53,355 bases of DNA from Streptomyces sp. ICBB 8177 (GTDB lineage: Bacteria; Actinomycetota; Actinomycetes; Streptomycetales; Streptomycetaceae): assembly GCF_003144095.1 (NCBI RefSeq), contig NZ_NSKH01000001.1, forward strand, positions 1-53,355, given 5' to 3'. Below, piece by piece: positions 952 to 53,355 of the stretch (position 1 is its first letter; each line of letters starts with the position of its first letter). The notes under the pieces were generated by a model. That model did no database searches. It saw only the letters and a list, made by a program, of their open reading frames with translations, and had not been told where the DNA came from. The position numbers were made by a program, and so were the translations under genes.

Positions 952-3618
952 ATGCAGGTCATCTCACTCAGGGAACACCAAGTAGATCAGCGCTACGCGT
1001 TTCGTAAGTGGGTGGGATTCCCTGCAAGGTCGTCTGTGCCCCCGCAGGGCGCCCGGGGCACGATCGTGTCAGCGACCGGCTCGGGCAAGACGATCACGGC
1101 CGCCGCGTGCGCGCTGGAGTCGTTCGCGGACGGCCGGATCCTCGTCACGGTTCCGACCCTGGACCTGCTCGCCCAGACCGCCCAGGCATGGCGCCTGGTG
1201 GGCCACCGCGCCCCGATGTTCGCGGTGTGCTCGCTGGAGAACGACCCGGTCCTCAAGGCACTGGGAGTGCGCAGCACCACCAACCCGATCCAGCTCGCCC
1301 TGTGGTCCAGGTCCGGGCCCGTGGTCGTGTTCGCCACCTACGCCTCCCTGGTCGACCGTGAGGACATCGACGCACCCGAGGGCCAGCGGAAGGTTCGCGG
1401 GCCACTGGAGGCCGCTCTGGCAGGCGGCCAGCGACTCTACGGCCAGCGCATGAACGGCTTCGACCTCGCCATCGTAGACGAGGCCCACTCAACCGCAGGT
1501 GATCTTGGCAGGCCCTGGGCGGCGATCCACGACAACCAGCGCATCCCCGCCGACTTCCGCCTCTACCTCACAGCCACCCCCCGCATCCTCGCCTCCCCCC
1601 GGCCGCAGAAAGGCGCGGACGGCCAGGAGCTGGAGATCGCCTCAATGGGCCAGGACTCCGAGACCTACGGGCCCTGGATCGCCGAACTCGGGCTCTCGGA
1701 GGCGATCGAACGCGAGATCCTCGCCGGGTTCGAGATCGACGTGCTGGAGATCCGCGACCCCTCCTCGGTCCTCGGGGAATCAGAGGAGGCGCGGCGCGGC
1801 CGGCGCCTGGCCCTGTTGCAGACCGCGCTCCTGGAACACGCCGCCGCACACAACCTGCGCACCGTCATGACGTTCCACCAGAAGGTCGAGGAAGCCGCCG
1901 CGTTCGCCGACAAGCTCCCCGAGACCGCGGCTGCGCTGTACGTCAACGACGCCACGGACGAGGACCTGGCCGCCGCCGACAAGCTCCCCGCGTCCACGAT
2001 CGACGCGGCCTTCTACGAGCTGGAGACCGGCCGCCACCTACCCCCGGACCGCGTCTGGTCGGCCTGGCTCTGTGGCGACCACACCGTCGCCGAACGGCGC
2101 GAAGTGCTACGCCAGTTCGCCAACGGCATCGACGCCGCCGGCCGACGGGTCCACCGCGCCTTCCTCGCAAGCTGTCGCGTCCTCGGAGAAGGCGTCGACA
2201 TCACCGGCGAACGAGGCGTCGAGGCCGTCTGCTTCGCCGACACCCGCGGCTCCCAAGTCGAGATCGTGCAGAACATCGGCCGCGCACTCCGGCTCAACAG
2301 GGACGGCAGCACGAAGGTGGCCAGGATCATCGTGCCGGTCTTCCTGGAGCCCGGCGAGGACCCGACCGACATGGTCGCCTCCGCCAGCTTCAAGCCGCTC
2401 GTGGCCGTGCTCCAGGGCCTACGCTCTCATGATGAGCGCCTGGTCGAACAACTCGCCTCCCGCGCGCTCACCAGCGGCAAACGCAAGATTCACCTCCAGC
2501 GCGACGAGAACGGCCGGATCGTCGGGGCCGCCGGCGGCCCGAGCCACAGCCAGGACCAGGAGCACGACGACGACACCGACGCCGCTGCCGAATCGGCCCT
2601 GCTGCACTTCTCCAGCCCCCGCGACGCGACGACCATCGCGGCGTTCCTGCGCACCCGGGTCTACAGGCCCGAATCGCTGGTCTGGCTGGAGGGATACCAA
2701 GCCCTGCTCCGGTGGCGGAAGGAGAACGAGATCACCGGCCTCTACGCCGTCCCCTATGACGTAGAGGTCGAGGTCGGGGCGACGAAGGCGTTTCCGCTTG
2801 GCCGATGGGTCCACCAGCAAAGGAAGGCGCTGCGGGCCGGGGAGCTGGAGGAGCGGCGCAAGACGCTGCTGGACGCTCCGGAGGCCGGGATGGTCTGGGA
2901 GCCGGGTGAGGAGGCGTGGGAGGCCAAGCTGGCCGCGCTGCGGTCCTACCGGCGGGCCATGGGGCACCTCGCGCCGCGTCAGGACGCGGTATGGGGCGAA
3001 GGCGAGACGATGGTGCCCATCGGGCAGCACATGGCCAACCTCCGCCGCAAAGGCGGACTTGGGAAGGATCCGAAGCGCGCGGCGGAGCGGGCGAAGCAAC
3101 TGGCGGAGATCGACCCCGACTGGAACTGCCCCTGGCCACTGAACTGGCAACGCCACTACCGCGTCCTGGCCGACCTCGTCGACGCCGACGGCCACCTCCC
3201 CCACATCCGGCCCGGGGTGCTGTTCGACGGCGACGACATCGGGCGCTGGCTCCAGCGGCAGTCTCAGCCGGGTACTTGGGCGCAGCTGTCGACCGAGCAG
3301 CAGGAGCGACTGGCCGCGCTGGGCATCAAGCCCGCCCAGACGCCGTCTCCCGCGCCTGCGGCCACGCGTGCCACGAAGGGCCCGGGCAAGGCGCAGCAGG
3401 CGTTCCAGCGCGGCGTTCAGGCCCTTGCACAGTACATCGCCCGGGAGGGCCACCACTGCGTCCCCAGGGCCCACGCAGAAGAGATCGCGGTGGAGGGCGA
3501 GGCCGCCTCGGTGGTCGTCAAGCTGGGTGTGTGGGTCTCGAACACCAAGACCCGGCGGTACAAGCTCAGCGCGGAGCAGCTGGACGCGCTGCGGGAGCTG
3601 GGCGTGGAGTGGGCGTGA
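952..3618 (+). CDS. ttrA: telomere-associated SF2 helicase (TtrA-like), left copy
   Basis: This 888-residue DEAH-type superfamily 2 helicase has Walker A ATGSGKT at 41-47, Walker B DEAH at 176-179, motif III LTATP shortly after, and motif VI QNIGRALR at 440-447. The C-terminal third carries Trp-rich helicase-associated repeats (GYQALLRWRKENE, EEAWEAKLAALRSYRR, NWQRHYRVLADL) typical of actinobacterial terminal helicases. Streptomyces chromosomes and linear plasmids carry such genes a few hundred bases from their telomeres, and ttrA has been linked to conjugal transfer of linear ends. A second, strongly similar copy lies in inverted orientation at the other end (49053-51731). The start is the ATG at 952, preceded by a purine-rich stretch. 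Helicase assignment is firm; the telomere role is inferred from position and family. Confidence 0.85.
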   Translation: MQVISLREHQVDQRYAFRKWVGFPARSSVPPQGARGTIVSATGSGKTITAAACALESFADGRILVTVPTLDLLAQTAQAWRLVGHRAPMFAVCSLENDPVLKALGVRSTTNPIQLALWSRSGPVVVFATYASLVDREDIDAPEGQRKVRGPLEAALAGGQRLYGQRMNGFDLAIVDEAHSTAGDLGRPWAAIHDNQRIPADFRLYLTATPRILASPRPQKGADGQELEIASMGQDSETYGPWIAELGLSEAIEREILAGFEIDVLEIRDPSSVLGESEEARRGRRLALLQTALLEHAAAHNLRTVMTFHQKVEEAAAFADKLPETAAALYVNDATDEDLAAADKLPASTIDAAFYELETGRHLPPDRVWSAWLCGDHTVAERREVLRQFANGIDAAGRRVHRAFLASCRVLGEGVDITGERGVEAVCFADTRGSQVEIVQNIGRALRLNRDGSTKVARIIVPVFLEPGEDPTDMVASASFKPLVAVLQGLRSHDERLVEQLASRALTSGKRKIHLQRDENGRIVGAAGGPSHSQDQEHDDDTDAAAESALLHFSSPRDATTIAAFLRTRVYRPESLVWLEGYQALLRWRKENEITGLYAVPYDVEVEVGATKAFPLGRWVHQQRKALRAGELEERRKTLLDAPEAGMVWEPGEEAWEAKLAALRSYRRAMGHLAPRQDAVWGEGETMVPIGQHMANLRRKGGLGKDPKRAAERAKQLAEIDPDWNCPWPLNWQRHYRVLADLVDADGHLPHIRPGVLFDGDDIGRWLQRQSQPGTWAQLSTEQQERLAALGIKPAQTPSPAPAATRATKGPGKAQQAFQRGVQALAQYIAREGHHCVPRAHAEEIAVEGEAASVVVKLGVWVSNTKTRRYKLSAEQLDALRELGVEWA

Positions 3619-19811: not shown

Positions 19812-21710
<1,899 letters not shown>

Positions 21711-21718
21711 GGCTCGCC

Positions 21719-22327
21719 ATGCCTACCCACCCCCAGAAGCCCGACCGGGCAGCGTCCGACCCGGACGTACGGGTCCCGGAAGGCGCCGGAGGCCCCCCTC
21801 GCGGGGACCTGCCCCAGCCGGGCGCGCCCCGGCCCGAAGCGGCGAACGGCGAACCGGGACCCGATGCCGCCGGACCCGCGCCCGCCGAGGACGAGTACAC
21901 GACCGCGATCCGGGAACTGGAGGACCGCTGGCGGCGCGCACTCGCCGACCTCGACAACCTTCGCAAGCGCCACGCCAGGGAACTGGAGCGCGAACGGGCG
22001 GTCGAGCGTTCCCGCACGGCGGCCGCCTTCCTACCCGTCCTCGACAACCTCGAACTCGCCCTGACCCACGTCGGCGCCGATCCGGGCGCGATCGCGGAGG
22101 GCATCCGGGCCGTACGCGACCAGGCGGTGAACGTCCTCGAACTGCTCGGCTACCCGCGGCACGCGGAGACCGGCGTCGCCTTCGACCCGGCCCGGCACGA
22201 GGTGGTCGGCGTCGTCCACGACCCCGACGCCCCCCCGGGCACCGTCGTCGAGGTGCTGCGCCCCGGCTACGGGGACGGCGAACGGCAGCTCAGGCCCGCC
22301 GCCGTGACGGTCACGAAGCGGGAGTGA
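21719..22327 (+). CDS. grpE: nucleotide exchange factor GrpE
   Basis: 202 residues. The first ~55 are a disordered Pro/acidic tail (RVPEGAGGPPRGDLPQPGAP). A long helix (YTTAIRELEDRWRRALADLD, NLRKRHARELERERAVERSR) leads into the head with AAFLPVLDNLELALTHVGAD and the C-terminal beta region (DPARHEVVGVVHDPDAPPGT). GrpE releases ADP from DnaK. It starts 8 bases after the dnaK stop. The sequence is clearly diverged from typical chromosomal GrpE in the head, in line with an accessory partner set. Confidence 0.93.
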   Translation: MPTHPQKPDRAASDPDVRVPEGAGGPPRGDLPQPGAPRPEAANGEPGPDAAGPAPAEDEYTTAIRELEDRWRRALADLDNLRKRHARELERERAVERSRTAAAFLPVLDNLELALTHVGADPGAIAEGIRAVRDQAVNVLELLGYPRHAETGVAFDPARHEVVGVVHDPDAPPGTVVEVLRPGYGDGERQLRPAAVTVTKRE

Positions 22328-22333
22328 CCGATC

Positions 22334-23287
22334 ATGGCACGGGACTTCTACGAGGTGCTGGGCGTGCCGCGGGCCGCAAGCCAGGACGAGATCCAGCAGG
22401 CATATCGCAAACTCGCCCGTAAGTACCACCCCGACGTCAACAAGGACCCCGGGGCGGAGGAACGCTTCAAGGACCTCAACGAGGCATACAGCGTGCTGTC
22501 CGATCCCAAGACGCGAGCCCGCTACGACCGCTTCGGCGAGGACTTCCGCAAGATCCCTGAGGACTTCGACGAACGGGTCGCGGCCGGAGCGGGCGGCGGC
22601 TTCCGCGCTCGAAGGACCTCGGGCGCGGGCGGCCCTCGCGTCCGGTACACCACCGGCTTCGGCGACGACTTCGGAGCGGAGGACATCGACATCGAGGACC
22701 TGCTCGGCTCCATGTTCGGAGCCGGCGCCACCCGAGGCGGCGTCCCCGGAGCGGACCAGGAGGCCGAACTGCCGCTCACCGTCGAGGAGGCGTACCGAGG
22801 CGGCCGTCGCACCGTCACACTCGCCGGTCCCACCGGTCAGCCGCGGCGGTACGAGGTCGACGTGCCGCCGGGAGTCACCGACGGGCAGCGCATCCGGCTG
22901 TCGGGCGAGGGCGGCCGGGGCAGTGGTGACGCCCCCGCGGGCGACCTGTACCTGCGGGTCCGTATCCAGCCCCACTCCCGGTTCCGGCTGGACGGCCGCG
23001 ACGTGCACGTACAGGTCCCGGTCGCTCCATGGGAGGCGGCCCTGGGCGCGACGGTGCCGGTGCCCACCCCCGGCGGCGGCACGGGCAAGGCAACGGTGCC
23101 CGCGGGCTCGTCCAGCGGCCGGCGGCTGCGGCTGCGCGGCGAGGGCATGCCGAACCCGCGAGGCACGAACGGCGACCTGTACGCCGAACTCCGTGTCACG
23201 GTGCCTCCCGCCCTGAGCGACCGGGAGCGCGAACTGTTCGAGGAGCTGGCCGCCACTTCCTCGTTCGACCCCAGGAGGACGCGATGA
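22334..23287 (+). CDS. cbpA: DnaJ/CbpA-type co-chaperone
   Basis: 317 residues. The J domain occupies 4-70 with H32-P33-D34, followed by a Gly/Phe-like linker ([12 protein letters not shown]). Two C-terminal beta domains ([40 protein letters not shown]) complete it. The four CxxCxGxG zinc repeats of DnaJ are absent, so it is a class B (CbpA-like) Hsp40. That fits with the MerR-like CbpM partner encoded next. It stimulates the DnaK ATPase and delivers substrates. It overlaps the next gene by ATGA (23284-23287). Confidence 0.93.
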
Positions 23288-23681
23288 ACGACCGACCCGC
23301 GGGAGCTGGGGGCATCGGCCGGGCCGGCGTGGACGCCCGTCCGGTACGAACGGGCGCCGACATCACCGCCCCGACGGCTGTCCGGTACGCGCTCGTGCCC
23401 GTCCCCAGGCTCTCCCTGCCCGCCGTTGCCCTTCGCTCGGGCCTGCACCCCGACCTGATCCGCCGGTTCGTCGCCCTCGGGCTGGTCGACGCCGAACGCG
23501 ACTCCGCGGGGCGACTGGTGTTCGACCCCACGGCCCCGGCGGTTCTCGCCCGTATCCAGCGGCTGCGCACCGGACTCTGCCTCAACTACGCATCCATCGG
23601 CCTGGTGCTCGACCTGCTCGACCGCATCAGCCTGCTCGAAGCCGCCCTGCGCGGCCGCGGCACGAGGAGTGAAACACCCTC

Positions 23682-23691
<10 letters not shown>
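23284..23691 (+). CDS. MerR-like chaperone modulator (CbpM/HspR-like)
   Basis: 135 residues from ATG 23284. After ~35 disordered residues, [40 protein letters not shown] forms a MerR-type HTH. A terminal helix follows ([20 protein letters not shown]). CbpM proteins bind the J domain of CbpA and tune its activity, while HspR, a related MerR, represses dnaK operons. Position between dnaJ and clpB suits either. No HspR operator is visible upstream of the operon, so I favour the CbpM role. Confidence 0.75.
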
Positions 23692-26317
<2,626 letters not shown>

Positions 26318-26321
<4 letters not shown>

Positions 26322-38106: not shown

Positions 38107-39498
38107 GGGAGTGTCAACTTAACGGCTGATCTTGTTTGTTGAGGTGGTCAGCGGTTGCTTGGGGTCAGTCGGCCGTCGAAGGCGATCTGGAAGGCGTTCA
38201 GCGGCGCCTTCCAGCGCATGGTCCACCTGCGTCGTCCCTTGCCGGTTGGATCAAGGCTCATCAGCGCGAGATAGACACATTTGAGGGCGGCGGCTTCGGT
38301 CGGGAAGTGCCCGCGAGCTCGCACGGCCTTGCGGATGCGGGCGTTGACCGACTCGATCGCGTTCGTCGAGCAGATGACTTTACGGATTTCCACGTCGTAG
38401 GCGAGGAAGGGGACGAACTCCGCCCAGGCGTCTGACCACAGCTTCACGATCGCCGGGTACTTCTTCCCCCAGACCTCGGTGAACTCCAGGAACCGTTCCT
38501 CGGCCGCCTCGGCCGTAGGCGCGGTGTAGACGGGCCGGAGGGCCTTGGCGAGTTTGTCCCAGTCCTGGCGGGCCGCGTAACGGAACGAGTTGCGCAGGAG
38601 ATGCACCACACAGGTTTGGACAATCGTGGGAGGCCAGACGGTCTCCACCGCGTCGGGCAGGCCCTTCAGCCCGTCGCAGACCAGCATCAGCACGTCTTCG
38701 AGGCCGCGGTTCTTCAGCTCGGTGAACACCTGCAGCCAGTACTTCGCGCCCTCGCCGCCGTCGCCGGCCCAGATGCCGAGGATGTCCCGCTCACCCTCCA
38801 CGGTGACCGCCATGACCAGGTAGATCGGCCGGTTGGCGACCTGCTGGTCGCGGATCTTCACGTTGATCGCGTCAACGAACAGGACCGGGTAGACGCGGTC
38901 CAGCGGGCGGCTCTGCCAGGCGGCCATGCCCTCCATGACCTGGTCGGTGATGGTAGAGATGGTCTGCTTGGACACCTCGGCCCCATAGACCTCGGCCAGG
39001 TGGGCGGCGATCTCGCCGTGGGTGAGGCCCTTCGCGGACAGCGACAGCACCATCTCGTCGACTCCGGTCAGCCGCCGCTGCCGCTTCTTGACGATCTGCG
39101 GCTCGAACGTGCCCGAGGTGTCACGCGGGACCTTGACCTCGACCGGCCCGACGTCGGTCAGCACGGTCTTGGCCCGGCTTCCGTTGCGGGAGTTGCCGCT
39201 GCCCCGGCCGGCGACATCGTGCTTCTCATAGCCGAGGTGATCGGTGATCTCACCTTCCAGGGCAGACTCCAAGACCCGCTTGGTCAGCTGCTGCAGCAGC
39301 CCACCCTGCCCGGTCAGCTGCAGTCCCTCCGACCGGGCACGCTCCACCAGCATCGCGACGAGCTGCTCGTCGGACACAGGCACAGGCTGCCCGGACTCAG
39401 CACTCTCGGCAGACTCCACGGTCTCCAACTCCACGGCGGTATCAGTCACTTGACGTCTCTCCCATGATCGTCGGATCCGCCGTTAGATTTACACTCCC
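38107..39498. mobile_element. IS256-family insertion sequence
   Basis: The ends are GGGAGTGTCAACTTAACGGC (from 38107) and, reversed, GGGAGTGTAAATCTAACGGC (ending at 39498), an imperfect inverted repeat. The element is 1392 bp with an intact transposase gene. The flanking 8-mers (CCAGGGCA before, GCACAGGG after) do not match, so the usual 8-9 bp target duplication is missing, which suggests a later deletion next to one end. Bases 39499-39643 on the far side hold nothing recognisable. Confidence 0.85.
38148..39449 (-). CDS. IS256-family transposase
   Basis: 433 residues, full length for the mutator-like IS256 group. The DDE core shows D in YPVLFVDAINVKIRDQQVAN, D in DVLMLVCDGLKGLPDAVETV and E in ICSTNAIESVNARIRKAVRA. 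The HTH region contains GLTHGEIAAHLAEVYGAEVS. It appears functional. Insertion beside the DNase fragment explains the loss of that gene's 5' part. Confidence 0.95.
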   Translation of the reverse strand: MTDTAVELETVESAESAESGQPVPVSDEQLVAMLVERARSEGLQLTGQGGLLQQLTKRVLESALEGEITDHLGYEKHDVAGRGSGNSRNGSRAKTVLTDVGPVEVKVPRDTSGTFEPQIVKKRQRRLTGVDEMVLSLSAKGLTHGEIAAHLAEVYGAEVSKQTISTITDQVMEGMAAWQSRPLDRVYPVLFVDAINVKIRDQQVANRPIYLVMAVTVEGERDILGIWAGDGGEGAKYWLQVFTELKNRGLEDVLMLVCDGLKGLPDAVETVWPPTIVQTCVVHLLRNSFRYAARQDWDKLAKALRPVYTAPTAEAAEERFLEFTEVWGKKYPAIVKLWSDAWAEFVPFLAYDVEIRKVICSTNAIESVNARIRKAVRARGHFPTEAAALKCVYLALMSLDPTGKGRRRWTMRWKAPLNAFQIAFDGRLTPSNR

Positions 39499-39643: not shown

Positions 39644-41146
39644 CTACCGGAAGGCGTGTGCGAATGTGTTCCAGGAGGCCTCGAGGATCTGGTTACGCAG
39701 TGGGCTGCGCTGGCCGGTGATGGTCTTGAGCGCCCAACCTTCGACGGTGGGGTCGCGGACGGCCTTCAGGACGATGTCGCTCATCGAGGGATTCTCCGCG
39801 ATGACCAGGAGTTCCAGTTCGTCGGCTGAGCAGATGAGCGTAGGCGTGGACGTGACGGGCAGTTCCTGCCGTACGGGATAGCCCTGGGCCAGGTGGAAGG
39901 GCTCGAGCGTGACGACCAGTCCGATGATGGGCCGGTCGCTGGGGATAGCGGTGAACTCCTCGCGTCGCTCGCGGATGAAACCAGCTGTCAGATCGATCTG
40001 CTTGAACGCGTCGCTGATCTTTCCCTGGGCGGTTGAGACCCCTTCGGCCCATCCGAGCCGGTAGTCCTGGGTGGGCATCGCGGACTTCACCTCCACGATG
40101 AGCACAGCGTCGTCGTGCACGACGATCCAGTCCGCGCTCTTGCCTCTCTGTCTGCCGCGTATGCGGTAGTCGATTTCGGGCAGGACGTCGGCGGCGGGCA
40201 GCAGTGCCAGCTGACTGCCGACGTACTGCTGGAACAAGTGGCCCAGGTCCCGGGTGAAGGCGGTGCGCCAGCGAGCCAGGCCCGCGAAGTAGATGCCCGC
40301 CGGACCGGCCTTGCGCGGCAGGAGTGCCGGGACCGGGCACAGGTAACCCGGGCCCATCCCACGCACGAGCGGGTGGCTGGTGAGCGGGTTGTAGGCGTAC
40401 CTGCGGTGGTCGGGCGTCCAGTTCGGGGAGCTCTTGGAGCGGGCCAGGACCGTGGCATGGTCCCTGCGTAGTTGGTCACGGTCAGCGGCGAAGTGCCCAT
40501 CGACGAGGGTGAGCAGCTCCTCGCGGGGAGCAGCTTGCTCGAACTGTTCGGCTTCCGGGCCGCTGTAGAGCCGGTCGGGTATGAAACGGCCGCTGAACTG
40601 TGATGCCGCAACGTAGAGAAGCAGAGCGGTCCGGCTGTAGGCGGCCAGGTCAGTCCCGAACAACTCCCGGTCCCAACCGGGTCTGATGCACTCGGGCGTG
40701 TAGTCCCGCGGGAAGCCTGCGTCGAAGATCGCCTTGGTACGGGCGAATTGTGGATACGCCTCATCCTGGTACGGAAACTGCAGGTTGGAGGTGAGAAGCA
40801 GGATTTCGCGGGCGGTCGCGCTGCCGGTGGCATGGCTGTGTGCGCCGACGGAGGCGTTGTAGAGACTCACGAGTTCCCGGAGCTGGCGTGGTGTTGCATG
40901 GTGACGGCGCGGGGCATCGCGGGCGGTCAGCGACACCGACGCGATGTCGGCGAGTGCCCAGGGATAGTAGGTGATGCCCTCATCCGGGCGGTGCATCCAG
41001 CCGCGTCCGATTTCCGGTATGCCGAACTGTGCCGAGACCGACGCAATATGCGGGATGAGACTCTCCGGCGCGTAGCGCCGTACGCTCTTGACGTACCGCC
41101 GTTCCGGTATGACCTCGAATTCGGCATTATCCATGCCCTGGATCAT
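39644..41146 (-). CDS. PD-(D/E)xK nuclease-like protein (500 aa)
   Basis: About 500 residues from ATG 41146 (MIQGMDNAEFEVI; ATG 41134 is an alternative). The C-terminal half has SADWIVVHDDAVLIVEVKSA with D339, E352 and K354, the core of a restriction-like nuclease. It is preceded by LPEIDYRIRGRQRGK and followed by helices that could hold DNA. The N-terminal half (PHIASVSAQFGIPEIGRGWM, HRPDEGITYYPWALADIASV) has no match I know. A 227-base gap separates it from the upstream 761 aa gene, so it may have its own promoter. It may be a part of the helicase cluster or an independent defence protein. Confidence 0.7.
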   Translation of the reverse strand: MIQGMDNAEFEVIPERRYVKSVRRYAPESLIPHIASVSAQFGIPEIGRGWMHRPDEGITYYPWALADIASVSLTARDAPRRHHATPRQLRELVSLYNASVGAHSHATGSATAREILLLTSNLQFPYQDEAYPQFARTKAIFDAGFPRDYTPECIRPGWDRELFGTDLAAYSRTALLLYVAASQFSGRFIPDRLYSGPEAEQFEQAAPREELLTLVDGHFAADRDQLRRDHATVLARSKSSPNWTPDHRRYAYNPLTSHPLVRGMGPGYLCPVPALLPRKAGPAGIYFAGLARWRTAFTRDLGHLFQQYVGSQLALLPAADVLPEIDYRIRGRQRGKSADWIVVHDDAVLIVEVKSAMPTQDYRLGWAEGVSTAQGKISDAFKQIDLTAGFIRERREEFTAIPSDRPIIGLVVTLEPFHLAQGYPVRQELPVTSTPTLICSADELELLVIAENPSMSDIVLKAVRDPTVEGWALKTITGQRSPLRNQILEASWNTFAHAFR

Positions 41147-41373
41147 GACACTTCCCTTCAGCCTCGCGCCCGCGAGCCCATGCCCTGGAGTGTCCACTTC
41201 TGCGACGACACCGCAGCCGGTGCGCGAGCGCTTTTCCGCCTGCTGCCGAGGTAGGCGGGAGAAAAAGTGCACCAGGGAGCGGAGGAAGGGGCACGGACGC
41301 CAGCCTACGACGCTGCCAGCCTTCCCGGGCGTCTGCGAGAGCATGGCCCGGACGGGGCCGCCGCCTCTCTGGC

Positions 41374-43659
41374 TCAGTTGCGTCCGAGCAGGCGGTCGAG
41401 GAGTCCGCGTCGACGTTCGGGCTGCACCGGAGGTGCTGGTGGTGAGGGTGGCTGCTGCGGGGTCGGTGTCGAGGTGTTTGCGGGGGTCGGGGGGAGTGGA
41501 GGGGGTGTGGGCTGTGTGGCGGGTTCTTGTTCTGCCTCGGTGGTACGGGTGAGGGGGAGGTCGAGACGGGCCTGCTGGGTGGCGGCGGTATAGGCCGGGT
41601 AGGTCAGGCCTTCCGGCCAGGTGTAGGACGGTGCGCGGAATTCCTTTTCGGTGGGGGTGCGGCCGAGGAGTTCTTCGAGCTGGATGAGGCGGGGGGCTTG
41701 AGCCACGAGGCGGGTCATGGCCCAGCTTCGCTGGAAGCCGGGCACGTCGCCGCCGGTGTTGGTGACGTAGCGGCCGCCCAGGGCATGGAACACGTGGCGG
41801 CACAGGGCGGTGCGGTCGTAGGGCAGCAGGTGGATGCGTTCTTGCTGCACGGGGGTCTTCTCGCCGATGGCCGCGCACAGGGCGGCCAGGTCGCCGCCGA
41901 ACCACCGGTTCGCGACGGGCGCGGCGATCCGAGCGAACTGCTTGACGGTCAGGGGTTTCCCGCGGCCGTTGGCGGCCCGGTTGAGCTCGCGGGAGACCTC
42001 CTGCAGCTGTCCTTCCCATGAGCCGAGTGCGGTCTCGAGGTGTTGGCGGGCCCAGGCCCGGCGGTGGCGAGTGATGATGTCGCGTAGGAGGGGGAAGCCG
42101 TCGCGGCGCTGGCCGACGGTTGTGGTGGCGGTGATGGTGTAGCCGTCGGGGTGGTCCATCTTGATGGGGCGCTGGATGTCCTGGGGCGGTCCAAGGCGCT
42201 GTTCTGCGTCGGCGAGTTCGGTGAACAGGCTTAGATCGACCGGGGTGCCGGTGGCCTTCAGGGCGTTGGTGCGGCGGGCGTGGTAGTCAGCCAGGCCGTG
42301 TAGGTCGCTGCGGGCGTAGGGGCCTTCGCAGATGTACCACGTGCTCAGGGCGATTTCGTGCCAGAACGTGAGTGCGGGCCCGAACGCTTCGGCCATGCTG
42401 GCCTGGGGCAGCAGCGCGGAGACCAGGCGGTCGGGGTAGCGCGGATGGCATTCCGAGCCCCACAGCTTCTCGGTTTCGGCGAGGAGCTGCGGCGGCAGGA
42501 CGCGCTCGTAGACGGGGGTGGGGAAGGCTTCGTCCTCGTCCGGCGGGATCCAGGGGTTGCCGACCAGCTCGAACAGGGGCGGCTGGGCGGCGTGGAGGGC
42601 GTCGAAGGTCTCCCAGTAGTGGCGCAGCACGGTGACGCGCTGCTCGATGGGGGAGCGGATCTCGTCGCTGCCCAGGTAGCTGGCGACCATCGAGGCGACC
42701 TGCTCGACGGGCAGCTTCTGCTGTGCGGCGATCTGCTCGACTTTCGCGGAGGCGCGCACATACAGGCGGGCAGTGGGCAGGGCCGTGACGATCTGTTCGT
42801 CGTCGGCCGGCTGCTCGCCCAGGTAGTCGAGGAACGCTAGCCAGTCGCCGTCGAAGAACGCGGCGAGGGTGGGCTGCAGCGCCTTGGTGAGGACAGCGCG
42901 GGCGGTAGGGCGGCCAGTCTTCGCCTTGAGGTAGTAGCGCTGCAGCAGCACCGCCAGCTGGGTGGCGCGCCAGCGGGCGGTGATGGTGTCGATCGCCGGC
43001 GTGAGCGCGTGGACCAGGGCTTGGCGGGCGGTGATCTGCTGGTCCGTGGTCAGGCGGGACCAGCCGCCTCCCGGGCGCAGCCGGGCGAGCGCTGTTTCCA
43101 CGGGCGCGGTGAGCAGGCCCAGGGCGCGGTAGCGGGCCTCGGCGTCGGCCCAGGCGGCACCGGCTGCGGTGGGCTCGAGGGCGCCGGCCTGCGGTCCGCG
43201 CAGGGCCAGCGGGGCGAGCAGGTCGGTGGCGTAGGGGATGAGCAGCGCCCAGCAGGCGAACGCGTCCGAGTTGCCGGCAAGTGGGGAGCGCGCGGAGACC
43301 ATGGCGGCGATGTTCGCGGCCCACCGCGGGTTGTTGCCCGTGTAGTAGGCGGGCAGATTGACCGGGCCGGCTTTGACCACGGTGCTCTCGGGTAGCCACC
43401 AGGCACCCTTGGCCTGCTGCCTTGCGAGGTCGAACCAGCCGTTCATGGCTGTGCGCGTCGACGGCGGCAGGCGCAGGGACAGGTGTCCGTCGGCGGACAG
43501 CTCCACCGGCGCCGTACCGGTGAAGCTGGTCGTCATGACGGTCGCGGCCAGCTCCTCGAACGGAGCGAAGCGCCCTGCCTGTCCGTCGGCACGTTCGGCC
43601 GCGAGGAAGGCGTCGGGGCCGGTGGCGGCCGCGAGGGTGCGGCCGAGGCTGTCAGTCAT
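41374..43659 (-). CDS. unknown 761 aa protein of helicase-nuclease cluster
   Basis: From ATG 43659 (MTDSLGRTLAAATGPDAFLA). The start overlaps the end of the helicase gene by 8 bases, so the two are coupled. The sequence is mainly helical, with Trp/Tyr-rich islands (AYYTGNNPRWAANIAAMVSA, FELVGNPWIPPDEDEAFPTP, ALSTWYICEGPYARSDLHGL) and ends in a Pro/Thr-rich linker and a basic tail (RRRGLLDRLLGRN). No catalytic motif is apparent. I do not recognise the family. By context it could bind the helicase product or act as sensor or adaptor. Confidence 0.75.
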   Translation of the reverse strand: MTDSLGRTLAAATGPDAFLAAERADGQAGRFAPFEELAATVMTTSFTGTAPVELSADGHLSLRLPPSTRTAMNGWFDLARQQAKGAWWLPESTVVKAGPVNLPAYYTGNNPRWAANIAAMVSARSPLAGNSDAFACWALLIPYATDLLAPLALRGPQAGALEPTAAGAAWADAEARYRALGLLTAPVETALARLRPGGGWSRLTTDQQITARQALVHALTPAIDTITARWRATQLAVLLQRYYLKAKTGRPTARAVLTKALQPTLAAFFDGDWLAFLDYLGEQPADDEQIVTALPTARLYVRASAKVEQIAAQQKLPVEQVASMVASYLGSDEIRSPIEQRVTVLRHYWETFDALHAAQPPLFELVGNPWIPPDEDEAFPTPVYERVLPPQLLAETEKLWGSECHPRYPDRLVSALLPQASMAEAFGPALTFWHEIALSTWYICEGPYARSDLHGLADYHARRTNALKATGTPVDLSLFTELADAEQRLGPPQDIQRPIKMDHPDGYTITATTTVGQRRDGFPLLRDIITRHRRAWARQHLETALGSWEGQLQEVSRELNRAANGRGKPLTVKQFARIAAPVANRWFGGDLAALCAAIGEKTPVQQERIHLLPYDRTALCRHVFHALGGRYVTNTGGDVPGFQRSWAMTRLVAQAPRLIQLEELLGRTPTEKEFRAPSYTWPEGLTYPAYTAATQQARLDLPLTRTTEAEQEPATQPTPPPLPPTPANTSTPTPQQPPSPPAPPVQPERRRGLLDRLLGRN

Positions 43660-45718
43660 GCAGCGCTCGTACGACGTCGGCGTATTGCTCGAACGACACA
43701 GGGCTGTGGGTGCCGGCCGCATACAGTGCGTAGCGCTGGGCGAGGGCTTCGCGTTCGCGTTCGGCGCGCCGGGTCTCGACGCGCTCGGAGTCGTGCACGA
43801 CGCGGCTGGTGATCTCGCCGCGTTCGAAGAGCACGAATGCGTCCATCCGGCCGGTTTCGTCGCCGCCCCGGCTGCCGGGAAGCGGGGCGGTGCCGATCGG
43901 CTCGGGCGCGTCGTCGGCGACCGTGCCGGTGGCCGGGTCCATGTCGTTCTCGGCGTAGAGGGTGTCCAGGTGGTCGTCCAGGCCGAGCTCGGCGTGTAGG
44001 ACGATGTCGAGGAACTGCTGCTGGGGGCCCACCCGGCCCTGCAGCGAGGGGTGGGACAGGATGCGGATGCCGCGGCCGATGAACTGGTAGAACTCGCTGA
44101 AGCTGCCGTAGGGGCGCATGGGCACCACCAAGCAGATGGGAGGGAAGTCATAGCCCTGGCCCAGCATCTTCAGCTGCACGATGCCGTCGAGGTCTCCGGC
44201 GTCCGACTCGAACCGCTCGCGGACCTTGGCGATGGCCGCGTCGGTCATCGAGTGGTGCAGGACGTCGCAGGTGATGCCGTGTTCGTTGGCCAGGCGCGCG
44301 ATCTGCTCCGCGTGCTGGCGGCCCATGGCCGCGAACAGCACCCGGGGCTTGACCGGGAACAGCAGGTCGCGCTGTTGGTCGAGCAGGCGTTTCACGACGC
44401 GCATCACCTGGCGGATCGGCTCGGTCGACCTGGCCGTGATACGCGAGAGCTTACGCTCGTCTTTGAGGATGGCCAGCAGCTCGTCCCGGCCGTTGATCTC
44501 CTCCCGTCGGCCGTCCGGCCACACCAGCTCGTAGGTGGTGGCCGCGCTGTCGGGGGTGAACCGGTGCACGCGCAAGTTCTTGGCGTTGCCGTCCGCGATG
44601 GAGTCGATGAGGCGGTACCGGTAGACCACCTCCGCATCGATCGGCTTGCCGTCCAGGCGGGTGAAGCAGGCACTCATCAGCACGACGCGCGCCGAGGCGA
44701 AATGCGCGAACAATCGCTGGTAGGACTCGGCCGCCGCGATGTGCGCCTCGTCCACGACGATGAAGTCCACATCGTCCGGGGCCAGCTTGGCCAGCAGATC
44801 GTCGGGGTCCTGCCCACTGCCCAGGGAGTGGAAGTTCGTGACGATGACGTCGGCGGCCAGCAGCTTCTGTCGATCTACCTTGCGAACACCCCCGGCGTCC
44901 CGGTCCACCGTGAGCACCGAGGGCGGCTGGCACCCTGGGATCAGCGGCCCGCCGTGCAGCCCGTAGAGGGCGTTACCGACAGCCCAGTGGTCCAAAGCTG
45001 TGTCGAACGTCCCGCGGATTACGTTGCCCGGTGTGACGACCAGCGCGCGCCTGCGGGTCACGGCGAGCAGAGCGGCCACCCCCAGCGCGGTCTTGCCGGC
45101 GCCGACGCTCATCACACACGCGGCCTTGGTGCCGCCGACTGCGTAGAAGTCCTTCAGCGCGGCCAGCGCCTGCTTCTGGCACTCGCGCAACGTCCGCACA
45201 TCGACGGCCTCTCGCGCAAGCGTGAAGTAGTCGCGGTCGCCGGCCACGGTGCTGATGCGCGGCGAGGGGCCGAAGGCGGCCCGGGGATCGGGGTCCATAG
45301 CGGGTGTCTCCACGAGCGGATGGGCGATGACAAGCAGGGCCAAGGCGGGGTCACGGGCCATGACCGCCTGCAGTTGGGCGACGCAGCGGGCCGTGTTCGT
45401 GCGGATGGAGTCGTAGGAGAACCGGACCACCGCGTGCCCAGCAGCAGTGAGGTCGTTCTGCCGCAGCCGGTCGCGGGTGAACGCCTCCCGGCCGCTATGG
45501 GCCGCGAAGCCGTCGAGTTCGACCGCCACCTGCAGCCGGTCGCCCGCCACGAGATAGTCGAGCCGGTAGCAGTGCCCGCCCACATCCAGCGGCGCCTGTG
45601 CCCGCACTCGGTCGACGATGGCCGGATGAGCCGCAGGGGTCAGCACCCATCGCACGAACGCGTACTCCAGGAACGACTCGCTGGGCAGGACCTGCGCCAG
45701 ACCGGGATGCCCCGTCAT
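43652..45718 (-). CDS. DUF559 (Vsr-like) nuclease-SF2 helicase fusion
   Basis: 688 residues. Residues 50-110 form a DUF559/Vsr-like PD-(D/E)xK domain: D54, E67-L-D69 in VAVELDGFAAHSG, RDRLRQNDL and VVRFSYDSI. A helicase follows with VGAGKT at 205-210 (K209), DEAH at 323-326, an SACFT motif III equivalent and QFIGRGIRIL as motif VI. The tail is charged. Such fusions are expected to load on and cut invading DNA. It overlaps the preceding gene (ATGA, 45715-45718) and the following one (8 bases), making a three-gene translational unit. Confidence 0.8.
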   Translation of the reverse strand: MTGHPGLAQVLPSESFLEYAFVRWVLTPAAHPAIVDRVRAQAPLDVGGHCYRLDYLVAGDRLQVAVELDGFAAHSGREAFTRDRLRQNDLTAAGHAVVRFSYDSIRTNTARCVAQLQAVMARDPALALLVIAHPLVETPAMDPDPRAAFGPSPRISTVAGDRDYFTLAREAVDVRTLRECQKQALAALKDFYAVGGTKAACVMSVGAGKTALGVAALLAVTRRRALVVTPGNVIRGTFDTALDHWAVGNALYGLHGGPLIPGCQPPSVLTVDRDAGGVRKVDRQKLLAADVIVTNFHSLGSGQDPDDLLAKLAPDDVDFIVVDEAHIAAAESYQRLFAHFASARVVLMSACFTRLDGKPIDAEVVYRYRLIDSIADGNAKNLRVHRFTPDSAATTYELVWPDGRREEINGRDELLAILKDERKLSRITARSTEPIRQVMRVVKRLLDQQRDLLFPVKPRVLFAAMGRQHAEQIARLANEHGITCDVLHHSMTDAAIAKVRERFESDAGDLDGIVQLKMLGQGYDFPPICLVVPMRPYGSFSEFYQFIGRGIRILSHPSLQGRVGPQQQFLDIVLHAELGLDDHLDTLYAENDMDPATGTVADDAPEPIGTAPLPGSRGGDETGRMDAFVLFERGEITSRVVHDSERVETRRAEREREALAQRYALYAAGTHSPVSFEQYADVVRALHD

Positions 45719-46242
45719 ACGGCCGCGTCCTCAGCGGCCACACGCGCTGCCCGCTCCCGCGCTTTGCGGACGCGGGGCCTGTCACCGGCCCCGACGTGTT
45801 CGGCGGCTTCCGCCACCCACAGGGCATCTGCCAGCAGCCCCTCCGTGAGGTACATCTCCAGCAGCCAGTCCACGGCCCCGATGTACACGAACTGGCCCTC
45901 GGCGAACGAGACCGCGTCCGGAACGGCCAGGGCCAGCTGCAGATCCAGGCGGCACAGCCGCTCGATCTCGCCAAAAAGTTCCGGACTTGTCTGGCGTCGC
46001 CTACGCAGCTCCGCGACCGTGCTCTGCAGCGCGTAGTGGTAGTCCGACGCCTGGCCCGGGAGCTCGAGCACCTCCGCGAGGTTCACAAGCACCTCAGCGG
46101 TCGAGACGTCTTCGGTGCGCTGCAGGGCATGCTGCTGAGCCGGCGACTGGGTGGTGTTTCCCCACCACAGCGACGGCTCACGCCCCTGGAACCGCTCGAT
46201 CCTTGGGCGTTGCCCCCAACCGGCGGCCCGTAGCCGGTCCAT
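45715..46242 (-). CDS. small helical protein, first gene of helicase-nuclease cluster
   Basis: About 175 residues from ATG 46242 (MDRLRAAGWGQRPRIERFQG). The frame is open further upstream to 46512, so the start is uncertain. It is helical with many Leu and Glu (VLVNLAEVLELPGQASDYHY, AELRRRRQTSPELFGEIERL, WLLEMYLTEGLLADALWVAE). No known domain. It overlaps the helicase-fusion ATG. It might be a regulatory or structural subunit. Confidence 0.65.
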   Translation of the reverse strand: MDRLRAAGWGQRPRIERFQGREPSLWWGNTTQSPAQQHALQRTEDVSTAEVLVNLAEVLELPGQASDYHYALQSTVAELRRRRQTSPELFGEIERLCRLDLQLALAVPDAVSFAEGQFVYIGAVDWLLEMYLTEGLLADALWVAEAAEHVGAGDRPRVRKARERAARVAAEDAAV

Positions 46243-46646
46243 ATTCAGACCGGTAGGAGGCTGATAGACCACTCCGCGTACCGCAGCTAACCGCGCATAC
46301 CACCCGGGTGCCGCCACAACCCCCCCGTTCCAGAGCCTGATTCCGCATCCTGGCAGGTATGTGAAGGTGATGTGATGGCCAATGGCGCTTCGTGACCCAA
46401 TAGTTGCCGTGGCCACAGAGTCATGGTCCGTCCAGGCAGCAGCGCCGCGGGCACTTCCGCCCCTGACCGACTTCGCCGCCATGGCATACCGCGACTTCGA
46501 GGCCAGCACCACCCCTGCCGCGGCGGCGGTGCCCGTCGCGGCAGGACGGGGGTGGCGCAGGACAGTGGCTTCTGTGTTGGCACGCCCACCTGGCCGCCCT
46601 GCTACAGACTGGTTTGCTCGCGATCTCGAATGAAGGATGGATTCGC
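46243..46646. other. divergent intergenic region (cluster/DUF6308)
   Basis: About 400 bases between the minus-strand cluster and the plus-strand DUF6308 gene. It would have to carry both promoters. The minus-strand frame is open through part of it, so the upstream gene may begin here. I see no clear operator. A GAAGGA ribosome-binding site at 46633 serves the GTG at 46647. Confidence 0.4.
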
Positions 46647-49052: not shown

Positions 49053-51731
49053 TCATGCCCACTCAACCCCCAGCTCCGCGAGGGCAGCGCGCTGCTCCTG
49101 AGTGAGCTTGTCGCGGCGGGCCTTGGTGTTGGAGATCCACACGCCCAGCTTCACGGCCACCGGCTCGGCCTCGTCGTCGACGACGATTTCTTCGCTGTGC
49201 GCGCGTGGAACCGGCCTGCCCGCGCCTTCCCGCTCGATCCACTGGGCGAGGGCCCTCACACCGCGTTGGAAGGCCGCTGACGCCTTCCCTGATGCCTTGC
49301 CGTTCTTGATGGCTGGTGCCTGGGTGGGCCGTTCAGCGGGCTTCACACCGAGCTCGGACAGCCGCTGCTGCTGCTCTTCGGACAGCTCCGCCCAGGATTT
49401 CGCCTGTCGCTGGAGCCACTGTCCGAGGTCGTCGCCTTCGAAGAGCACACCGGGCTGGATGTCGGGTAGGAAACCGTGGGGTTCGTCGGCTGCGAGGTCG
49501 GAGAGGATGCGGTAGTGGCGTTGCCAGTCCAGCGGCCACGGGCAATCCCAGTCCGGGTCGATCTGAGCGAGCTGAGCAGCGCGGGCCGCGGCACGCTCGG
49601 GATCTTTCCCGAGGCCGCCCATCCTGCGGAGGTTGGCCATGTGCTGCCCGACGGGGATCAAGCTGTCTCCTGCACCTTGGCTCGCCCCCTCGCCCCAGAG
49701 AGCGTCCTGCCTCGGTGCGAGGTGCCCACGTGCACGGCGGTAGGAGCGGAGAGCGGCGAGCTTGTTCTCCCACGCCTCCTCACCCGGCTCCCACACCATC
49801 CCGGCCTCGGGCGCGTCCAGCAGCTCCTTGCGCCGTTCCTCCAGCTCTCCGGCTCGCAGTGCCTTGCGCTGCTGGTGCACCCACCTCCCAAGGGGAAAAT
49901 TTTTCGTGACGCCGACTTCGGTCTCGGTGTCGTAGGGCACGGCGTAGAGGCCGCTGATCTCGTTCTCGGCCCGCCAGCGGATGAGGGCCTGGTAGCCCTC
50001 CAGCCACACCAGTGAGTCCGGCCGGTACACCCGGGTACGCAGGAAGGCCGCGATGGTGGCCGCGTCGCGGGGGGTGGAGAAGTGGAGCAGGGCGGATTCG
50101 GCGGCGGCCTGGGTGTCGTCGTGCTCCTGGTCCTCGCCGTCGCCTTCGCCGCCGGCGCCGACGATCCGGCCTTCTTCGTCGCGCTGCCCGTGGACCGTGC
50201 GGGCGTGCTTGCTGCGGGTGAGGGCGCGGGAGGCGAGCTGTTCGACCAGGCGTTCGTCATGCGAGCGCAGGCCCTGGAGCACGGCCACGAGCGGCTTGAA
50301 GCTCGCGCTGGCCACCATGTCGGTCGGGTCCTCGCCGGGCTCCAGGAAGACCGGCACGATGATCCTGGCGATTTTCGTGCTGCCGTCGCGGTTCAGCCGG
50401 AGGGCGCGGCCGATGTTCTGCACGATCTCCACCTGGGAGCCGCGGGTGTCGGCGAAGCAGATGGCCTCGACCCCGCGTTCGCCGGTGATGTCGACCCCTT
50501 CCCCGAGGACGCGGCAGCTGGCGAGGAAGGCGCGGTGGACCCGGCGCCCGGCGGCGTCGATGCCGTTGGCGAACTGGCGCAGTACCTCGCGCCGCTCGGT
50601 CATGAGGTGGTCGCCGCACAGCCACGCGGACCAGACCCGGTCCGGGAGTACGTGGCGGCCAGGCTCGAGCTCGTAGAAGTGCGCGTCGATCGACGACGCG
50701 GGGAGCCGATCGGCGGCCGCCAGGTCCCCGTCGGTGGCGTCGTTGGCGTATAGCTCGGCCGCCGTTTCCGGCAGCTTCTCCGCGAACGCGGCTGCCTCCT
50801 CCACCTTCTGGTGGAAGGTCATGACGGTGCGCAGGTTCCACCTCGCCGCGTGCTCGAGGAGCGCGGTCTGCAGGAGCGCCAGGCGCCGGCCCCGCTGCGC
50901 CTCCTCCGATTCCCCGACGACCGGGGAAGGGTCGCGGATCTCCAGCACGTCGATCTCGAACCCCGCGAGGATGCCACGCTCGACCGCCTCCGAGAGCCCA
51001 AGCTCGGCAAGCCACGGCCCGTAGGTCTGCGAGTCCTGGCCCATCGATGCCAGCTCCAGCTCCTTGCCCTCCGCGCCCTTCTGCGGCCGGGGTGAGGCGA
51101 GGATGCGCGGGGTGGCGGTGAGGTAGAGCCGGAAGTCGGCGGGGATGCGGGCGTTGTCGTGGATGGCCGCCCATGGACGACCGAGATCGCCTGCGGTCGA
51201 GTGGGCTTCGTCCACGATGGCGAGGTCGAAGCCTGCCATCTGCTGGCCGTAGAGCCGCTCCCCGCCCGCCAGAGCGGCCTCCAGCGGCCTACGGACGTTT
51301 CCCTGACCGAACGGGTCCTCCGGGTCCTCGCGGTCCACGAGGGAGGCGTACGTGGCGAACACGACCACCGGCCCGGACCTGGCCCACAGCGCCAGCTGGA
51401 TCGCGTTGGTGGTGGTGCGCACCCCCAGTTCGTTCAGGACCGGGTCGTTCTCCAGCGAGCACACCGCGACCATGGGCGCGCGATGCCCCACCAGGCGCCA
51501 TGCCTGGGCGGTCTGCACGAGCAGGTCGAGGGTCGGCACGGTGACCAGGATCCGGCCGCTGGGGAAGCACTCCAGCGCGCACGCGGCAGCCGTGATGGTC
51601 TTGCCCGACCCGGTCGCGGACACGATCGTGCCCCTCGCACCCTCCGGCGGCACCGGTGATCTTGCAGGGAATCCGACCCATTTACGGAACCGTGATTTCT
51701 GTTCCACCTGGTGTTCTCGGAGCTGAATCAA
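49053..51731 (-). CDS. ttrA: telomere-associated SF2 helicase (TtrA-like), right copy
   Basis: 892 residues from ATG 51731 (MIQLREHQVEQKSRFRKWV). Walker A ATGSGKT is at 39-45, DEAH lies at about 174-177, and QNIGRALR is retained. It matches the left copy (952-3618) almost throughout. Differences cluster in the N-terminal 15 residues, around the variable RSKHARTVHGQRDEEGR region, and in a short insert GASQGAGDSLIPV near 690. The gene points away from the telomere end, as its partner does. It overlaps the upstream gene stop (51728-51731, ATGA). Confidence 0.85.
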   Translation of the reverse strand: MIQLREHQVEQKSRFRKWVGFPARSPVPPEGARGTIVSATGSGKTITAAACALECFPSGRILVTVPTLDLLVQTAQAWRLVGHRAPMVAVCSLENDPVLNELGVRTTTNAIQLALWARSGPVVVFATYASLVDREDPEDPFGQGNVRRPLEAALAGGERLYGQQMAGFDLAIVDEAHSTAGDLGRPWAAIHDNARIPADFRLYLTATPRILASPRPQKGAEGKELELASMGQDSQTYGPWLAELGLSEAVERGILAGFEIDVLEIRDPSPVVGESEEAQRGRRLALLQTALLEHAARWNLRTVMTFHQKVEEAAAFAEKLPETAAELYANDATDGDLAAADRLPASSIDAHFYELEPGRHVLPDRVWSAWLCGDHLMTERREVLRQFANGIDAAGRRVHRAFLASCRVLGEGVDITGERGVEAICFADTRGSQVEIVQNIGRALRLNRDGSTKIARIIVPVFLEPGEDPTDMVASASFKPLVAVLQGLRSHDERLVEQLASRALTRSKHARTVHGQRDEEGRIVGAGGEGDGEDQEHDDTQAAAESALLHFSTPRDAATIAAFLRTRVYRPDSLVWLEGYQALIRWRAENEISGLYAVPYDTETEVGVTKNFPLGRWVHQQRKALRAGELEERRKELLDAPEAGMVWEPGEEAWENKLAALRSYRRARGHLAPRQDALWGEGASQGAGDSLIPVGQHMANLRRMGGLGKDPERAAARAAQLAQIDPDWDCPWPLDWQRHYRILSDLAADEPHGFLPDIQPGVLFEGDDLGQWLQRQAKSWAELSEEQQQRLSELGVKPAERPTQAPAIKNGKASGKASAAFQRGVRALAQWIEREGAGRPVPRAHSEEIVVDDEAEPVAVKLGVWISNTKARRDKLTQEQRAALAELGVEWA

Positions 51732-53016: not shown

Positions 53017-53355
53017 CCCAGAACCCGCAGGGGTCAGCCGGAGGACAGCCCACCCCCCACCCTTGCTGCTGCTCGGGCCGTAGGCCCGTTGGCCCGCCCC
53101 GCGCAGCGGGGCCGGCCTTTGTGGCGCGAAGCGCCACCCGGTGACCGGAGCGCAGCGGAGGCACCGGGTGGGGGGCGCAGCCCCCTCCGCTCCGGGAGCG
53201 CAGCGGACGGAGCGTCACCCGCCTTGCTGCGCAAGGCGGGTGCGCTGACCGCGCAGCGGTCAGCCAGCGCTCCCGCGGAGCGGGAGCGCAACACTCGTGC
53301 GCAGCACGGGTGTTCGCTTGCATCGCGCGCAGCGCGATGGGACCCGCTCCGCGGG
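53017..53355. repeat. right telomere (archetypal Streptomyces-type palindromes)
   Basis: Read from the end inwards, the palindromes are CCCGCGGAGCGGG (53343-53355), CATCGCGC-GCA-GCGCGATG (53321-53339), ACACTCGTGC-GCA-GCACGGGTGT (53291-53313, one mismatch), GCGCTCCCGC-GGA-GCGGGAGCGC (53267-53289) and GCTGACCGC-GCA-GCGGTCAGC (53244-53264). CACCCGCCTTGC-TGC-GCAAGGCGGGTG (53216-53242) and further nested repeats down to about 53080 follow. The GCA/GGA loops closed by G:C are the telomere hallmark, needed for folding the 3' overhang. The last base appears to be the true end. Confidence 0.92.

Follow-up and report, generated by a model that had tools for sequence, protein, structure and literature searches.

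A conserved three-gene nuclease-motor cassette on a linear Streptomyces plasmid, a candidate system against invading DNA

The stretch of DNA analyzed here, referred to as the window, is a whole contig of Streptomyces sp. ICBB 8177 (NZ_NSKH01000001.1) with a length of 53,355 bases. Open reading frame analysis shows four intact minus-strand genes at positions 39644 to 46317. The first three, genes A, B, and C, form a genuine conserved cassette encoding a small helical protein, a nuclease fused to a superfamily 2 (SF2) helicase motor, and a large helical partner protein. The favored reading, with a probability of roughly 0.6, is that A-B-C is a mobile three-gene system attacking invading DNA, either of phages or of incoming plasmids. 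Gene D, the fourth gene, is a neighbor outside the cassette.

Organization and Conservation of the Cassette

Gene A (45715 to 46317, minus strand) encodes a helical protein of 200 amino acids that resembles tetratricopeptide repeat (TPR) proteins, as judged from weak matches. Gene B (43652 to 45718, minus strand) encodes a 688-amino-acid protein in which a DUF559/MTES_1575-type PD-(D/E)xK nuclease is joined to an SF2 motor (ResIII/Helicase_C), and gene C (41374 to 43659, minus strand) encodes its mostly helical partner of 761 amino acids, which falls outside the recognized families. Genes A and B overlap in the tetranucleotide ATGA at 45715 to 45718, genes B and C overlap by 8 bases at 43652 to 43659, and 227 bases lie between C and D. 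An earlier interpretation of this DNA, made from the letters alone (the sequence-only reading), had placed B, C, and D on the minus strand with the same overlaps and the same gap; its coordinates were reproduced, and all three frames are intact. At this base composition, a random frame would stay open over 688 codons with a chance of ~8e-7 and over 761 codons with a chance of ~2e-7.

A profile search of genome contigs with a three-row alignment of B yielded 34 loci. Most or all of B is matched in 26 of these (L007 to L032), and the other eight share the nuclease part only. The match in L029 runs to B residue 597, where the contig ends. Genes A and B are present in 26 of the 26 other loci and gene C in 25, L029 ending before C. 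The order A, B, C is kept throughout; with the start codons called here, the A/B overlap is seen in every locus but L027, in which B has a masked start (25 of 26), and the B/C overlap in 25 of 25. The sequence-only reading had grouped the 761-amino-acid protein with the nuclease-helicase fusion and the small helical protein in one cluster, and these counts show that the three are a genuine conserved unit. Streptomyces accounts for 19 of the loci; the seven others come from Rhodococcus, Paractinoplanes, two actinobacterial metagenome-assembled genomes (MAGs), two Chloroflexota MAGs, and a Stenomitos MAG. The records with the cassette thus come from three phyla, Actinomycetota, Chloroflexota, and Cyanobacteriota, although MAG contigs may be misbinned. 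Four PLSDB plasmid records, three of them annotated as linear, carry B at 62 to 63% identity, and a truncated copy of the cassette lies in Nonomuraea (L006).

All three genes are under purifying selection. The ratio of nonsynonymous to synonymous substitution rates (dN/dS) in seven Streptomyces pairs is 0.13 to 0.20 for B, 0.18 to 0.37 for A, and 0.25 to 0.36 for C; every value is below 0.4, and C exceeds B in all seven pairs. The distribution is patchy: a scan of 21 genomes found C in a single one, and a scan of 41 found B in a single one at an E value of ≤1e-100, both times the window's own genome. Split frames affect C in L003, L004, and L032 and both B and C in L025; in L003 and L004 (8953 to 11684 in each), C is split at about residue 295. 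C is likewise matched in two pieces on a third plasmid, NBC_00055.

Among the 31 loci compared, gene families outside A-B-C occur in six at most, as counted with a simple gene caller on flanks of up to 8 kb, which are shorter at contig ends. A large protein of up to 1,753 amino acids lies near the cassette in six loci, namely, L018, L022, L025, and L026 (downstream of C) as well as L016 and L019, and is possibly a further defense gene. An NB-ARC/TPR protein, assigned by Pfam on the L003 copy, begins about 3.4 kb past the end of B in L003, L004, L017, L030, and L031.

The Nuclease-Motor Protein B and the Small Protein A

The domain architecture of B is well defined by Pfam, with DUF559 (PF04480) at 28.2 bits against a curated cutoff of 20.6, ResIII at 49.6 bits against 22.5, and Helicase_C at 34.8 bits against 23.5; MTES_1575 reaches 35.2 bits, below its cutoff of 38.2. 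Residues D54, E67, D69, K209, the DEAH box at 323 to 326, R549, and R552 are invariant in the 25 rows of the alignment. The scores above the cutoffs, together with intact Walker A, DEAH, and motif VI, identify B as an SF2 helicase. The sequence-only reading had already named E67, D69, K209, and D323 to H326 in B, and D339, E352, and K354 in D; each of these residues was found at its position. Identity to the window copy is 59 to 65% across the three phyla (25-row alignment covering 23 of the 26 loci).

In the tree of B, the window copy does not join the Streptomyces clade (100/100), from which it is separate, and groups with the rows from Rhodococcus, Chloroflexota, the cyanobacterium, and two actinobacterial MAGs (96/91). 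One change separates the 20 Actinomycetota rows counted from the remaining rows. The topology suggests horizontal transfer, short of proof, because the tree is midpoint rooted and contains several long branches. The search of viral contigs with B gave one distant match, confined to the motor part.

Gene A most likely starts at the GTG codon at 46317. The first residues encoded from this start match the N termini of the relatives, with the pattern W-[YF]-x-R-[LM]-A-A, and a G-rich stretch precedes the codon. The sequence-only reading had described a protein of ~175 amino acids from the ATG at 46242; this start is less likely, since the conserved N-terminal residues of the relatives align upstream of it and would be cut off. 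The AlphaFold model of A is helical, with a predicted local distance difference test (pLDDT) score of 89; as for C, it was built from rows of the window and its genome-contig relatives only. Weak matches of the TPR/PPR type are the strongest obtained for A, and scans of Pfam, PADLOC, NCBIfam, and PHROGs with the 175-residue form brought up nothing at E values of 1 or below. Identity to the window copy is 29 to 41% in a 30-row alignment.

Gene C and Its Putatively Exchangeable C-Terminal End

Gene C is the least familiar part of the cassette. Its identity to the window copy is 33 to 43% (24-row alignment), and the model, with a pLDDT score of 83, is mostly helical, with residues 708 to 761 largely disordered (pLDDT below 50 at residues 708 to 723 and 725 to 761). 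No match up to an E value of 1 was found in NCBIfam, PADLOC, or PHROGs, and no Pfam match lies above the cutoff. An enzymatic role of C was considered and rejected, as neither these libraries nor the Protein Data Bank (PDB) profiles assign it to a family. HNH_repeat, with an E value of 0.0063 below the Pfam cutoff and present in 3 of 24 members, hints at DNA binding near the C terminus but is too weak for a claim. The whole-chain model has no Foldseek match at an E value of ≤0.001 in the PDB or among viral models, and the VIA comparison gives Z scores of at most 5.3 among the matches listed (searches with the model of the whole chain). A phage or viral origin of C was likewise rejected, as no relative occurs among 50,697 phage records or in the viral contig search.

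The sequence-only reading held that C has no recognized family; this is right for the window copy and does not extend to its relatives, as 16 of the 24 C proteins end in a TerD domain (PF02342). With a TerD profile made here, the domain is found in each of the 18 Streptomyces genome loci whose sequence extends to the end of C and in the three Streptomyces plasmid loci, compared with none of the eight other loci reaching that end (which is missing from L006 and L029). In L032, TerD lies in a different frame from C. The window copy ends instead in a module at 41374 to 41540 (minus strand), delimited by alignment and pLDDT, which consists of a proline-rich disordered linker and a short basic-hydrophobic tail. 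The same kind of tail follows the linker in L009, L010, L011, and L015, and the C proteins of L007, L008, and L023 have neither TerD nor tail. We read the C-terminal end of C as a putative exchangeable module.

The tail may resemble the membrane tail of MinD. Its motif is present in five of the eight TerD-less C proteins, with the regular expression having been written after the tails were seen. For none of the eight, however, is the hydrophobic moment over the final 12 residues above that of shuffled sequences at the 5% level, so that a membrane tail stays at the level of an idea. A version of the proposed system built on this module, in which C is a scaffold governing B and its swappable end sets the trigger or the placement, as a TerD ligand sensor in Streptomyces or as a MinD-like membrane tail elsewhere, is considered unlikely. 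If it were true, the tail-type systems would catch DNA on entry at the membrane.

TerD domains have been proposed to recognize specialized nucleotide derivatives (PMC7159879). The ter genes are described as implicated in phage inhibition, and the ter operon is also associated with oxidative stress and, in part, with resistance to UV (PMC8123226). This dual background bears on a different explanation, in which A-B-C is a DNA repair or stress complex, with B as a RadD-like motor plus nuclease and TerD on C providing the tie to the Ter network of chemical stress. The resemblance of the helicase part of B to RadD (NF053632, 33.5 bits) and the frequency of TerD on C fit such a complex. The RadD score, however, is far from the cutoff of 720 bits; TerD is missing from 8 of the 24 C proteins, the window copy included; the patchy presence (B in one genome out of 41) and the occurrence of relatives in three phyla are unlike core repair; and defense genes stand among some of the neighbors described below. 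A repair or stress function is doubtful on this balance.

Neighborhood and Proposed Function

Neighboring genes were called by a simple script in 24 of the 26 loci, and 98 proteins from 20 loci, out of 112 such genes, were scanned with PADLOC. At a threshold of 1e-10, 99 families were matched, several of them at 1e-94 to 0 (25 families listed); families are counted here and not proteins, as several models often match one protein. Among the matches listed are pPIWI_RE (three members), PprDinG (two), AriA (two), GajA of Gabija, LmuB of Lamassu, JetC/JetD of Wadjet, a class II pAgo, and PDC-S37, with those to GajA, LmuB, and pAgo coming from pooled neighbors without placement in a locus. Six of nine large neighbors looked at singly matched PADLOC, and these lie in four loci: PprPIWI and PprDinG in L023, PprDinG and a second protein that matches like the HA-domain helicase of the window in L024, JetC (Wadjet) in L012, and PDC-S37 in L011. 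Pfam additionally shows McrBC among the neighbors in L007. A control set of 80 proteins from eight nonmember loci matched 30 families at 1e-10, none better than 3e-51; among the 25 of these families that were listed are mad3 (five members), AriA (three), mad8 (three), AbiEi (two), and single matches, with many helicase models. The contrast between neighbors and controls is supportive and is not a measured enrichment, since the two sets differ in taxa and protein length. The anti-phage logic that the sequence-only reading saw in this cluster agrees with the position of some relatives near known defense genes and with the patchy distribution of the unit; the inclusion of the fourth gene is not supported.

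For the proposed DNA-attacking system, a division of labor among the three proteins can be suggested. B would be the effector, an ATP-driven motor moving on DNA and cutting it with its own nuclease, in the manner of an HsdR-type subunit or of SauUSI. C would recognize the target, or it would assemble B and restrain it until the target or a signal is met, and A would serve as an adaptor between B and C. As no methyltransferase recurs with the unit, the discrimination between self and nonself should come from C and not from a protective mark; C might discriminate by DNA structure, by modification, or by a phage product.

Several points weigh against this interpretation. The evidence from the neighborhood is indirect, because chromosome arms and plasmids gather all sorts of accessory genes. 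Four loci (L022, L025, L026, and L030) were left out of the scan, three of the nine large neighbors (two in L009, one in L010) have no PADLOC match, and the control set is small, unmatched for taxon and protein length, and has 30 matching families of its own. The role given to C is conjecture, drawn from how well it is conserved and how fast it evolves. The window copy of C lacks TerD, the domain that the literature connects with phage inhibition. The split C frames may mean that the system is easily lost or costly, or some drafts may be in error. Finally, restriction-modification (R-M) systems, to which B shows its closest likeness, are reported to lie mostly away from chromosome ends (PMC10482375).

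If the system is active, it adds a three-gene nuclease-motor system to the defenses of Streptomyces and its linear plasmids and offers a concrete route to asking what TerD domains sense. With TerD fused directly to the partner of a nuclease-motor protein, deleting or swapping the domain would allow its role to be tested.

Gene D, a Neighbor outside the Cassette

Gene D (39644 to 41146, minus strand) encodes a 500-amino-acid protein that is probably a distant relative of the GapS1-type (NERD-like) nucleases. It matches NF047931 (antiphage_GapS1) with 30.7 bits (30.3 bits in another scan) and an E value of 1.4e-7, compared with a cutoff of 320 bits, and would not count as a member by the NCBI cutoff. 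The match covers residues 59 to 428 of D and positions 33 to 386 of the 455 in the model, i.e., most of the model, giving D a recognizable GapS1 likeness beyond the D339/E352/K354 core described by the sequence-only reading; it is the sole NF047931 match in the genome. The nucleases of B and D had also been presented as two distinct folds, which is doubtful, as both probably belong to the PD-(D/E)xK superfamily.

The sequence-only reading included D in the cassette as its second nuclease. D lies on the same strand only 227 bases after C, as would suit such a four-gene system. Relatives of D, however, stand beside none of the 26 other cassettes within the flanks covered, which span at most 8 kb and are nearly absent in L014 and L029, and they have a distribution of their own as GapS1-like nucleases on 24 plasmid records. 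On the plasmid of Streptomyces sp. NBC_01527, the cassette is at 517 to 523 kb and a relative of D, unlinked, at 892 to 894 kb. In the window, D is followed by a Mutator-family transposase (38148 to 39449, minus strand; Pfam Transposase_mut, 1.1e-124), which we take to be of the IS256 type. The four-gene unit was therefore rejected, given the absence of D from all 26 other cassettes, and it is extremely improbable that D is part of the system. Rare co-occurrence, which the sequence-only reading had itself set as the finding that would count against a common system, applies to the set of four and not to the set of three. Separately, among the 15 Streptomyces records of these 24, relatives of D lie within 10 kb of a record end in 8, with 2.0 expected from the record lengths.

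The Linear Plasmid and the Position of the Cassette

The window appears to be a nearly complete linear plasmid of the Streptomyces type, with an SLP2-like right telomere and a left end about 150 bases short. The right telomere (53156 to 53355) matches the terminal 198 bases of NC_004933, presumably SLP2, and the right end has matches in 86 Streptomyces plasmid records, of which 15 were listed. The left end aligns to stretches located 54 to 274 bases, mostly 150 to 170, in from the ends of other linear-plasmid records of Streptomyces (15 listed of 125). At both ends, folding into hairpins surpasses that of all 200 shuffled sequences, with a z score of -7.8 for the last 130 bases. An HA-domain helicase resembling TtrA, with four HA stretches by Pfam, faces inward from the right telomere (49053 to 51731, minus strand), and an inverted copy at 952 to 3618, 81.6% identical to it, also faces inward. 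This placement agrees with that reported for TtrA (PMC8743542). The assignment of the cassette to a nearly complete linear plasmid follows from the whole contig, the telomere matches, the hairpin ends, and the inward-facing HA helicases taken together. The subtelomeric position claimed by the sequence-only reading is accordingly right and even stronger than stated, with the right contig end aligning to the exact end of NC_004933.

The distance from the start of gene A to the right telomere is 7.0 kb, and in the three records titled as complete chromosomes the cassette is 0.7, 35, and 87 kb away from where the record begins. These positions, along with the two inward HA helicases of the window, would suit a function for the linear replicon itself, in telomere upkeep or conjugal transfer, comparable to that of TtrA, which is reported to be needed for the conjugation of SLP2 (PMC8743542). 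Against such a function, the cassette lies far inside two linear plasmids (L003 and L004), with ~159 and ~375 kb to the closer end, and it also occurs in the Stenomitos cyanobacterium MAG and in Chloroflexota MAGs. We know of no such linear replicons in Stenomitos or Chloroflexota. A linear-replicon function is judged quite unlikely.

Another explanation, overlapping with the defense reading, is competition between plasmids, in which the linear plasmid would kill rival plasmids for its own protection rather than shield its host from phages. The presence of the cassette on the linear plasmid of the window and on the four PLSDB records speaks for it, and Wadjet and Lamassu, which have anti-plasmid activity, are likewise reported to be enriched at the ends of Streptomyces chromosomes (PMC10482375). 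This shared location also counts in favor of the defense reading. With three copies on records titled as complete chromosomes, plasmid competition as the function of the cassette is very unlikely.

Elsewhere in the window, plasmid-borne heat-shock genes occupy positions 19812 to 26321; they encode an Hsp70 and a ClpB-type AAA protein and are separated by three short genes. The segment from 9968 to 11454 matches its own reverse complement with 63% identity over 1,552 alignment columns, which may be a long imperfect palindrome or an effect of composition.

Comparison with Known Systems

The sequence-only reading stated that no named system with this set of genes was known, and the libraries searched indeed name no A-B-C unit. 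Neither A nor C is represented by a model in PADLOC 2.0.0, NCBIfam 20.0, or PHROGs 4, and neither has a Pfam match above the cutoff. The set is undescribed in the open literature searched, with subscription papers, bioRxiv, DefenseFinder, and newer catalogs lying outside that scope. The TerD-dependent systems offer a comparison through C: an anti-phage system dependent on TerD and associated with an McrBC-like R-M system has been put forward (PMC3710099). The C relatives of Streptomyces end in TerD, in contrast to the C protein of the window, and the cassette is not widely accompanied by any further gene family, whether Ter-related or otherwise.

The closest likenesses of B lie among nucleases fused to SF2 motors. 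HsdR joins an N-terminal PD-(D/E)xK-type nuclease to an SF2 motor in one chain. The HsdR family of EcoAI and FtnUII (NF046051) is the best NCBIfam match of B, with 42.3 bits compared to a cutoff of 550, which places B outside the family; both proteins have the nuclease ahead of the SF2 motor, but the nuclease of B is of the DUF559 type. Neither HsdM nor HsdS of the type I R-M systems recurs with the cassette, families outside A-B-C being found in at most 6 of 31 loci. SauUSI, a type IV enzyme, is likewise a single chain of nuclease and SF2 motor without a methyltransferase, with a phospholipase D (PLD)-type nuclease ahead of the motor. The entry 7clg of the PDB, titled "Putative helicase," is presumably SauUSI. 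The best PADLOC match of B is mREase_IV (6.2e-11), limited to motor residues 309 to 553. The PLD nuclease was not found among the six Pfam matches of B up to an E value of 1, and its place at the N terminus is taken by DUF559 and MTES_1575; SauUSI acts as a single chain, whereas B comes with two conserved partners.

More distant matches concern single parts of B. PDC-S37 matches residues 47 to 106 of the nuclease weakly (E value of 0.005), and Hhe matches residues 61 to 100 (E value of 0.044). Both are long SF1-type proteins, unlike B with its 688 residues and SF2 motor. The likeness of the helicase part to RadD is the low-scoring one given above. On the evidence of these comparisons, A-B-C would represent an undescribed form of nuclease-motor defense, in which a chain built along the lines of HsdR and SauUSI works with two partner families that are new to the libraries searched.

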